64,000 nucleotides of DNA, taken from the NCBI GenBank assembly GCA_947491985.1, contig CANLLR010000004.1, positions 1 through 64,000 of the forward strand, read 5' to 3'. Source of the stretch: Flavobacteriaceae bacterium (lineage in GTDB: Bacteria > Bacteroidota > Bacteroidia > Flavobacteriales > Flavobacteriaceae). The first letter of the stretch is position 1, and every line of letters starts with the position of its first letter. Positions 29,574 through 32,074 of the stretch are shown piece by piece. The position numbers and the translations under genes were made by a program. Below the pieces are notes generated by a model. It did not search any database. It was not told where the DNA came from and saw nothing but the letters and a program-made list of their open reading frames with translations.

Positions 29574-29653
29574 AATGTATTGATATCAAATTGTTAGTTT
29601 AATACTAAGCACTTTATAGTGTCACTTAGTAAAACTTCTAGAAATATTTTTTT

Positions 29654-29705
29654 GCCACAGATTCACAGATTTGAAAAAGATTTAAAAAATCTGTGAATTA
29701 GTGGC
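29654..29705. repeat. Hairpin-forming GCCACAGATT dispersed repeat
   Basis: GCCACAGATTCACAGATT ... AATCTGTGAATTAGTGGC, arms 16/18 complementary. Confidence 0.65.
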
Positions 29706-29718
29706 GAAATTTCACTAA

Positions 29719-30492
29719 CTAATTTTTGTAGCAAATTGGAATAATTTCTCCTTTTGCCAAGCAGTATTTTTCGACCAATTCGGCCGAAATTTTCGAGGTA
29801 TAATCTTCTTCAACAACAATAAAACCAATACTTCTTAATTTATCAAAATAATCGCGTCCGTACACACGAACGTGATCATATTGACCGAAAATTTTAGCAC
29901 GCTCTTTTTGATCGGTAATAGTATCATCAGAAAAGGTGTTAGCTCGAGATAGATCTTGTGGAATTTGAAAAATGCCCAATCCACCTGGTTTTAATACACG
30001 ATACAATTCTTGCATGGCTTTGGTGTCATCCGGAATGTGTTCTAAAACATGGTTACAAAATATAATGTCATACGCATTGTCTTCAAATGGTAAGTTGCAA
30101 ATATCGGCCTTTACATCGGCCAAAGGCGATAGCAAATCGGTCGTCGTATACTCGATATTGCTTTGCTTTTTAAAGCGTTTGTAAAATTCTTGTTCAGGAG
30201 CAAAATGCAATACTTTTTTCTTTATTGAAGCCGTAAAAAAATTGGTTTCGTTTTGCAAATACAGCCACAATAAACGGTGTCTTTCTAACGATAACGTACT
30301 TGGCGATAACACATTGTTGCGTTGATTTCCGTAACCGTAAGGCAAAAACATACGAAAACTTTGTCCGTCAATAGGATCGGTGAAACGACTTCCTTTAAGT
30401 AAAAACGCTAATATTGGGCGCACCACAATACTCAGTCTAATTAATATCGGACGAGGAATAGTGTTGAGTATGAATTTGAATATTTTTTTCAT
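29719..30492 (-). CDS. Class I SAM-dependent methyltransferase
   Basis: VLHFAPEQEF, DICNLPFEDNAYDIIFCNHVLEHIPDDTKAMQELYRVLKPGG. Confidence 0.92.
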   Translation of the reverse strand: MKKIFKFILNTIPRPILIRLSIVVRPILAFLLKGSRFTDPIDGQSFRMFLPYGYGNQRNNVLSPSTLSLERHRLLWLYLQNETNFFTASIKKKVLHFAPEQEFYKRFKKQSNIEYTTTDLLSPLADVKADICNLPFEDNAYDIIFCNHVLEHIPDDTKAMQELYRVLKPGGLGIFQIPQDLSRANTFSDDTITDQKERAKIFGQYDHVRVYGRDYFDKLRSIGFIVVEEDYTSKISAELVEKYCLAKGEIIPICYKN

Positions 30493-30503
30493 TTTTTATT
30501 TTG

Positions 30504-30526
30504 ACACGAATTGCACGAATTATCAC
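30504..30526 (+). repeat. Left inverted repeat of GxxExxY unit
   Basis: ACACGAATTGCACGAATTATCAC, 22/23 to reverse complement of 31059-31081. Confidence 0.8.
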
Positions 30527-30633
30527 AAATTTGTATTGCTTTAAAAATTTCACAAATTTGAAAACTTCGTTTGGTTGTTGTAGAATAACTTTTTTAATTT
30601 ATGAATGTTTTGCAATTCGGGTTAACTTTTTAT

Positions 30634-31008
30634 TCATAAAATCATTCGTTTGTACTTTAAACTGTCTTCTCCAAAATTGACTAACAAACCTAGTTTGTTT
30701 TTAAAAGAAGCTAAATAATTTAATGTTTGTTTTATATCGTTTGTGGTAAGTTGAGTTATTGCTTTTACTTCAAAAATTATTTCTTCATGAACCACAAAGT
30801 CAGCATTGTATTTTCTTGGTAAAACAATGTCTTTGTATTGTATTCTATATTCTTTTTCTCTTTCAAACGGAATGGAGTTTAATTTAAATTCATATTCTAA
30901 AGCATCTTTATAAATAACTTCACTATGTCCTTTTCCTAAAATTTTATGTACTTCCATACACAATCCAATAATTCTGTAAACTTCTTCTTTTAGATAAATT
31001 TCTTCCAT
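30634..31008 (-). CDS. GxxExxY family protein
   Basis: GLCMEVHKILGKGHSEVIYKDALEYEF (GxxExxY), DFVVHEEIIFEVKAITQLTTNDIKQTLNYLA nuclease-like E-x-K. Confidence 0.93.
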   Translation of the reverse strand: MEEIYLKEEVYRIIGLCMEVHKILGKGHSEVIYKDALEYEFKLNSIPFEREKEYRIQYKDIVLPRKYNADFVVHEEIIFEVKAITQLTTNDIKQTLNYLASFKNKLGLLVNFGEDSLKYKRMIL

Positions 31009-31042
31009 GGCAAATAATAATTATTGAAATTTCGGCGTATAG

Positions 31043-31072
31043 TAATTGGTGATAATTGGTGATAATTGGTGC
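31043..31072 (+). repeat. Three tandem 10-nt units within/adjacent to the right inverted repeat
   Basis: TAATTGGTGA TAATTGGTGA TAATTGGTGC. Confidence 0.8.
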
Positions 31073-31081
31073 AATTCGTGT
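31059..31081 (-). repeat. Right inverted repeat of GxxExxY unit
   Basis: GTGATAATTGGTGCAATTCGTGT; reverse complement ACACGAATTGCACCAATTATCAC. Confidence 0.8.
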
Positions 31082-31087
31082 AAAATC

Positions 31088-31900
31088 TTAAAGTTTGATG
31101 GAACGAAACTCGTCTTCCTCATCACTCACAATTCCCAAGGCATCATACACATATTGAAAAGTCGAAAGTAATTCGGGTTTTCCGTTAATTAACGCCACAT
31201 CATGTTCAAAATGCGCGCTAGGTTTACCATCCGCTGTCAAAATCGTCCAACCGTCTTTGAGTTGTTTGATGTTTTTGGTTCCCATGTTGATCATCGGTTC
31301 AATAGCTACCACCATGCCTTCTACAAATAATTTTCCGCGTCCTTTTTTTCCGTAATTTGGCATTTCCGGATCTTCGTGCATTTTTCGTCCCAAACCATGT
31401 CCTACTAATTCACGTACTACACCATATCCATTGTTTTCACAATGCTTCTGAATCGCATTTCCAACATCTTCAACACGATTGCCAATTTTGAATTCGCGTA
31501 TGCCAATATAAAGACTTTCTTTAGTCACTTTCAACAGTTTTTTTACTTCTGGAGCCACTTCGCCAATTTCAAAACTGTAAGCATGATCACCATAAAAACC
31601 GTTTTTCAACACACCACAATCTACCGAAATGACATCGCCTTCTTCCAAAGGTGCGTTGTTTGGAATGCCGTGAACGACTTGTGCATTCGGACTCATACAC
31701 AATGAATTTGGAAAATCATACAATCCTAAAAAGGCAGGAATTCCGCCATTGTCTCGGATGAATTCTTCTGCTAATTTATCCAATTGTAACGTAGTTACGC
31801 CAGGCTTAATGACCTTAGCTATTTCGCCTAAAGTTTTTGAAACCAGCAAGGCACTTTCGCGCATCAATTCGATTTCTTCTCGAGTTTTTTGGATAATCAT
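31088..31900 (-). CDS. map: Type I methionyl aminopeptidase
   Basis: SLCMSPNAQVVHGIPNNAPLEEGDVISVDCGV, LVGHGLGRKMHEDPEMPNYG, AHFEHDVALINGKPELLS. Confidence 0.96.
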   Translation of the reverse strand: MIIQKTREEIELMRESALLVSKTLGEIAKVIKPGVTTLQLDKLAEEFIRDNGGIPAFLGLYDFPNSLCMSPNAQVVHGIPNNAPLEEGDVISVDCGVLKNGFYGDHAYSFEIGEVAPEVKKLLKVTKESLYIGIREFKIGNRVEDVGNAIQKHCENNGYGVVRELVGHGLGRKMHEDPEMPNYGKKGRGKLFVEGMVVAIEPMINMGTKNIKQLKDGWTILTADGKPSAHFEHDVALINGKPELLSTFQYVYDALGIVSDEEDEFRSIKL

Positions 31901-32074
31901 GTTTGTATATTGAAAGCGCAAAAATAGTGAAAAGTGTTTGGTTTTCGTTTAACTGTTCGTAAAATTTACTAATTCAAATAGTTGTAATTTAGCACGATTG
32001 ATAAATTTTTTACAACATGAGTTTTATCATATTTTAAAAAAATAACCGATTTTAACTTTGTGAAAAATTAAGGT

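Follow-up and report, generated by a model that had tools for sequence, protein, structure and literature searches.

GxxExxY proteins are probably the enzymes of a two-part repeat system that is organized like REPIN-RAYT but built around a Cas4/RecB-like PD-(D/E)XK nuclease; this nuclease may be the engine of previously undescribed short self-spreading repeats. A large palindrome has the gene at its center, each protein clade has words of its own, hairpins made of the same words are dispersed through the genome in numbers that track the matching clade, and the gene has been gained and lost recurrently at one junction.

The locus under study lies in the window (the whole 64-kb stretch of DNA analyzed here), where a sequence-only reading had picked out a GxxExxY gene enclosed by a near-perfect 23-nt inverted repeat as a candidate mini mobile unit. 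The repeat is exactly where that reading had placed it, and on the same strands (ACACGAATTGCACGAATTATCAC, 30504–30526, plus strand; ACACGAATTGCACCAATTATCAC, 31059–31081, minus strand); GxxExxY is indeed the sole gene between its copies, and the distances of the unit from its neighbors, put at 12 bp from the methyltransferase start and 7 bp from the map stop, are right within one base. A pattern for both repeat copies (up to 3 mismatches) found no third match in the 64-kb window, with 0 expected from shuffles. Ungapped extension yields 32-nt arms (30500–30531 and 31054–31085; 91% complementary), the top-ranked of the window's 50 inverted-repeat pairs. The arms are composed of an 8-nt word repeated at a spacing of 9 or 10 bp (Table 1).

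Table 1. Features of the GxxExxY locus and its surroundings in the window
Feature	Position	Strand	Description
Gene-less palindrome	29650–29709	no strand	sister word CCACAGATTCACAGATT (CACAGATTCACAGATT word); rank 2 inverted repeat of the window
Methyltransferase gene	29719–30492	−	borders the recurrent insertion junction on one side
Left arm	30500–30531	+	3 tandem inward units: CACGAATT 30505–30512, CACGAATT 30514–30521, CACAAATT 30524–30531
GxxExxY gene (predicted nuclease)	30634–31008	−	intact, 124 aa; profile matches TIGR04256, PF13366
Right arm	31044–31085	−	4 inward units: CACGAATT 31080–31073, CACCAATT 31071–31064, 31061–31054, 31051–31044
map (methionine aminopeptidase)	31088–31921	−	annotation from sequence alone; other junction edge

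The words are not confined to this locus. With up to 2 mismatches, the window-word pattern finds 34 half-sites in the 2.65-Mb assembly, as compared to 2 for the reversed pattern, and several of them form palindromes of 61–121 bp. The gene-less palindrome, on the far side of the methyltransferase gene from GxxExxY, carries the word that surrounds a GxxExxY paralog elsewhere in the genome (C19:24174); half-sites with this sister word number 26, versus 0 in the control. GxxExxY genes in this genome number four, including one interrupted by a stop codon, and each sits within a word of its own (CACATAAG, CGCAGATT, CACGAATT, and CACAGAG). In-frame stops in genes whose arms are still there were seen in L034/L035 (G000:C39:950-1284) and L036.

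What kind of protein resides between the arms? The window protein scores 128 bits against TIGR04256 (cut-off 35) and 113.6 bits against PF13366; its profile search returned only these two, with no known-class transposase, Y1/HUH or DDE domain. It displays the GxxExxY motif at residues 27–33, D70, E80-x-K82, and Q94-xxx-Y98; across the family, these catalytic-type positions are nearly invariant (D, E, and K, 98% each; Q, 96%; Y, 95%), and the G-x-x-E-x-x-Y motif is likewise kept. D, ExK, and QxxxY are the signature of RecB/Cas4-type PD-(D/E)XK nucleases. A structure model (pLDDT 83.5, pTM 0.79) also resembles Cas4/RecB: its closest fold in Foldseek is Cas4 SSO0001 (4ic1), with an E-value of only 6e-3, and later matches are the Cas4-like ACE1, then homing endonuclease and T7 endonuclease I. 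A PDB sequence search with GxxExxY returned no relative. In one published case, GxxExxY was called where another tool called cas4 (PMC8934634). Unlike Cas4, GxxExxY is only ~124 aa long, has no CRISPR neighbors at the window locus, and, since the window protein contains a single cysteine, could not hold a four-Cys Fe-S cluster. Another group of PD-(D/E)XK proteins, the Rpn/YhgA recombination-promoting nucleases (PF04754), is annotated as putative transposases; the window protein differs in matching, among Pfam profiles, PF13366 only and not PF04754, and we know of no word palindromes described for Rpn/YhgA.

TIGR04256 is present in 101 of 198 sampled Bacteroidota genomes. On plasmids it was found in 8 of 72,556 records and in phages in 0 of 50,697, each by one phylum-type query; with one relative in viral contigs and zero in phages, a viral origin was rejected. 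To our knowledge, no activity has been reported for the GxxExxY family, and a literature search that had preprints and most subscription papers outside its reach returned nothing on GxxExxY function or these words.

Flanking repeats recur at GxxExxY genes elsewhere, a point on which the sequence-only reading had staked its idea. In the main sample, 80 loci from public genomes, nearly all Flavobacterium, inverted repeats exceed the 99th percentile of random stretches of the same contigs at matched spacing in 75 cases, and set against 407 similarly sized other genes on those contigs, 74 loci pass that percentile; matched control stretches and genes reach such arm scores in ~1% of cases. In a wider sample, arms flank 73/89 loci in the genus, 17/30 across the phylum, and 172/205 overall; by the scoring used, the other 13/30 phylum-wide loci have weak or absent arms. 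In Bernardetia, Bacteroides, and Gemmatirosa (Gemmatimonadota), GxxExxY genes on large replicons have similar arms, as does one gene on a metagenomic viral contig; a Treponema locus has them in a short form, and at the score used no clear inverted repeat could be made out around the loci of Fusobacteria, Sphingomonas, Persicobacter, and Prevotella. Both neighbors are co-directional with GxxExxY at 87 of 114 loci (L146–L265), a bias that could reflect either preferential insertion at operon junctions or selection favoring read-through.

The arms are arrays of about 3–4 tandem 8–9 bp units of the rough shape CRYNNAK, pointing inward in 184 loci and outward in 14. The word itself varies among loci (CACGAATT, CACAGATT, CGCAAAG, CCATTAAG, and others). 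Thus, of the idea of matching terminal repeats, the flanking repeats stand but fixed ends do not: because the words differ from locus to locus, an IS-like terminal inverted repeat was rejected in favor of short-word arrays that track the protein clade. On a protein tree of 99 loci, from which the map-junction orthologs were left out, word class changes 22 times, as compared to at least 43 in 200 shuffles. Paralogs within one genome are flanked by differing words; the word is shared by relatives elsewhere, both in other genomes and at different positions. The same pattern would arise if gene and arms were simply inherited together, so a word that follows the protein is alone no proof of recognition. 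Among orthologs, the two arms of a locus are more alike (46) than arms paired randomly (37; permutation maximum 41), although not above their likeness to the arms of the nearest species; concerted evolution of the two arms is only suggested by these sequence comparisons.

If the gene is mostly inherited in place, what multiplies? Across one set of 61 Flavobacterium genomes, half-sites of three words were counted per genome: ACCATTAAGNNATTAAG has 0–132 (control, 0–6), TCTCGCAGATTNNGCAGAT 0–117 (control, 0 in all 61), and AACACGAATTNCACGAATT 0–114 (control, 0–3). Many of these matches pair into hairpins of ~55–110 bp that are stable as single-stranded DNA, with folding z of solo hairpins from −7 to −9. 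In 1.49 Mb of fetched contigs there are 45 word palindromes and in the reversed sequence 0; 43 of the 45 are intergenic, where the non-coding share of DNA is just 14%. Their abundance follows the gene, as the REP/RAYT analogy drawn in the sequence-only reading would have it: median half-site counts with the matching clade present versus absent are 42 versus 2 (p=0.0004), 44.5 versus 0 for the second word (p=2e-5), and 13 versus 4 for the third (p=0.0007), and the three words together have a median of 1 in GxxExxY-free genomes and 23.5 in the others. Word copy number also grows with genome size; after adjustment for size, its partial correlation with GxxExxY count, across genomes that are phylogenetically non-independent, is 0.41 (p=0.001). 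Some genomes hold words without the matching clade: 31–40 CGCAGAT half-sites in five genomes and 20–52 CATTAAG half-sites in several. These copies fit loss of the gene or cross-action by another clade, and also independence from it.

The hairpins bear marks of turnover. A CATTAAG palindrome is nested in a CATATAAG palindrome (L278), and solo palindromes are present in one relative and absent from another, with no clean boundaries because the relatives are too diverged at the junctions. In one genome (G052:C63:59061-59738 and C68:96553-97031), same-orientation CGCAGAT half-sites recur at a spacing of about 217–230 bp, which points to repeat and spacer having been amplified locally in tandem. 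Five sample loci matched no Rfam family at gathering strength, and inspection of the listed palindromes revealed no GTAG/CGTC tetranucleotide at the hairpins.

The map/methyltransferase junction records the turnover of the gene. Among 59 Flavobacterium genomes, the empty site that a discrete insertion would predict occurs in 29 (gaps of 5–39 bp); 11 junctions hold a window-type GxxExxY gene, 10 a gene of another GxxExxY clade (34–40% identity) with CACAAAG/CACAGAG-type words, and the remaining 9 include deleted genes, gene-less palindromes, and one unrelated gene. At two of these (L307 and L319), the second-clade gene is internally deleted inside its arms; at two more (L124 and L331), there is a gene-less palindrome with the GxxExxY-B type word. 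Close relatives can differ in whether the site is empty or filled (L117 and L120 versus L118). Junction states change 20 times on the methyltransferase tree, versus a mean of 27 and a minimum of 21 after shuffling, a count made inexact by the noise of a single-gene tree. Even so, gain and loss at the junction have clearly been repeated. At the same junction in L335 (G057:C1:1894514-1899775), an unrelated ATPase-like/ATP-binding-like gene starts beside GxxExxY-type word units and is possibly cargo or a later insertion; in L126 and L129, the junction is occupied, without word units, by a small unrelated gene whose product has a Cys-rich N-terminus. Contigs from MAGs titled Bifidobacterium, Nitrotoga, and Rhizobium (L060, L061, L087, and L110) bear the Flavobacterium map-GxxExxY-methyltransferase region and are probably mis-binned or mislabeled records.

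These data split the idea of a mini mobile unit in two. None of the outcomes that the sequence-only reading had named as refuting it was seen: other GxxExxY genes have flanking repeats, empty sites exist, and the repeats lie dispersed between genes. The 578-bp unit, however, behaves mostly as a vertically inherited locus: 73 of 81 collected relatives are at this same junction, and there is normally one gene copy per clade (two in G036), yet cognate half-sites number 20–132 per genome. It is the gene-less palindrome that multiplies.

Could the gene instead be a homing-type element, a nuclease gene that splits its own palindromic recognition site and spreads when its product cuts vacant palindromes with that word and the gene is copied into them? 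Its central position in a symmetric, possibly recognized site is just what homing endonuclease genes show; gene-less GxxExxY-B type palindromes and differing clades at one junction, as well as a homing endonuclease among the fold matches, also fit. However, tens of cognate sites are free in genomes with about one gene per clade, so the available sites are not colonized, and the L307 and L319 junctions go the opposite way, with a gene decaying inside its arms. Homing is for these reasons unlikely. An explanation that we regard as similarly improbable makes GxxExxY a host-serving protein that binds or processes DNA in replication, repair, or gene control, with the palindromes as its binding sites, spread by slippage, recombination, or selection and not by the nuclease. 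Such a role agrees with vertical inheritance at one locus, mostly co-directional neighbors, and near absence from phages and plasmids, but sits poorly with a junction that is empty in half of the sampled Flavobacterium genomes, with the 11 of 61 genomes that lack any GxxExxY, with several paralogs of differing words per genome, and with palindromes that are nested and polymorphic.

The closest parallel is REPIN-RAYT, in which a low-copy, vertically inherited gene that is rare on plasmids lies in its cognate repeat, and intergenic hairpins are more numerous with the gene and also form orphan populations (PMC8049555). GxxExxY shares every one of these traits: short intergenic hairpins in tens to more than 100 copies, a gene flanked by the cognate repeat, vertical, low-copy and nearly plasmid-free inheritance, and repeats that are commoner with the gene yet occur as orphans too. 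In contrast, RAYTs are Y1/HUH proteins (PMC8266576) and GxxExxY is predicted to be a PD-(D/E)XK nuclease; its arms repeat a short clade-specific word, with the gene inside the palindrome and no GTAG tag seen, and several clades, each with its own words, coexist in one genome. The best reading of this comparison would be a REPIN-RAYT organization with an unrelated enzyme. MITEs and insertion sequences are likewise similar in part, with a gene between inverted ends and gene-less deletion derivatives that keep those ends, but the GxxExxY unit lacks a DDE transposase, its ends are iterated words that vary by locus, and the gene unit is largely immobile. We know of no precedent for the pairing of a GxxExxY enzyme with a repeat.

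A further idea is that a RAYT/IS200-type HUH transposase moves the hairpins, which would then be ordinary REPINs or MITEs, with GxxExxY as a passenger; they are REPIN-like, and a Y1_Tnp gene was found in 11 of the 16 genomes searched. Yet the genome with the most CATTAAG half-sites (G004) has no Y1_Tnp (PF01797) gene, two genomes with Y1_Tnp but without GxxExxY (G002 and G024) have nearly no palindromes, and the word tracks the GxxExxY clade; on these three genomes a RAYT/HUH mobilizer was rejected, and we consider it very improbable. The reading that a small gene happens to lie between inverted repeats due to chance, or between generic terminator-like ones, has a negligible claim, even though AT-rich intergenic DNA yields occasional inverted repeats and terminators are hairpins too: it is refuted by the ~1% of controls that reach such arm scores, by G+C-poor arms of tandem 8–9 bp words with a 400-nt gene between them, and by the genome-wide recurrence of the same words against near-zero controls.

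How might a nuclease-based repeat system work? From the PD-(D/E)XK enzyme, the absence of Y1_Tnp in G004, and the near lack of hairpins in G002 and G024, we infer that the nuclease would promote hairpin copying by host replication or repair. Since the 9–10 bp spacing of the units is close to one helical turn, protein monomers would bind successive units along one face of the helix, either on double-stranded arms or on a hairpin extruded in single-stranded DNA during replication. The nuclease would read the word array and cut at the hairpin or next to it; once cut or excised, the hairpin would be copied to another intergenic site, possibly via host repair or the lagging strand. In this division of labor, the gene would be the low-copy, vertically inherited partner and the hairpins the replicating population. 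A bolder version, on which we are evenly divided, holds that GxxExxY proteins are the founding enzymes of widespread palindromic replicators that have no kinship to HUH, DDE, or recombinase systems: a one-domain PD-(D/E)XK nuclease would read a clade-specific 8-bp word array and copy hairpins genome-wide, with word and protein co-evolving.

If a GxxExxY-driven repeat system is real, it would supply a function for a common nuclease family that has none known and account for dispersed hairpins that form a large class in Bacteroidota genomes. As word palindromes are three of the four clean intergenic indels found among 13 close species pairs, they may be a main source of intergenic variation. With many clades, each using its own word, the family would lend itself, as a natural series, to deciphering a DNA-recognition code. 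It would also mean that populations of REPIN-like repeats have originated at least twice, on the basis of unrelated enzymes.
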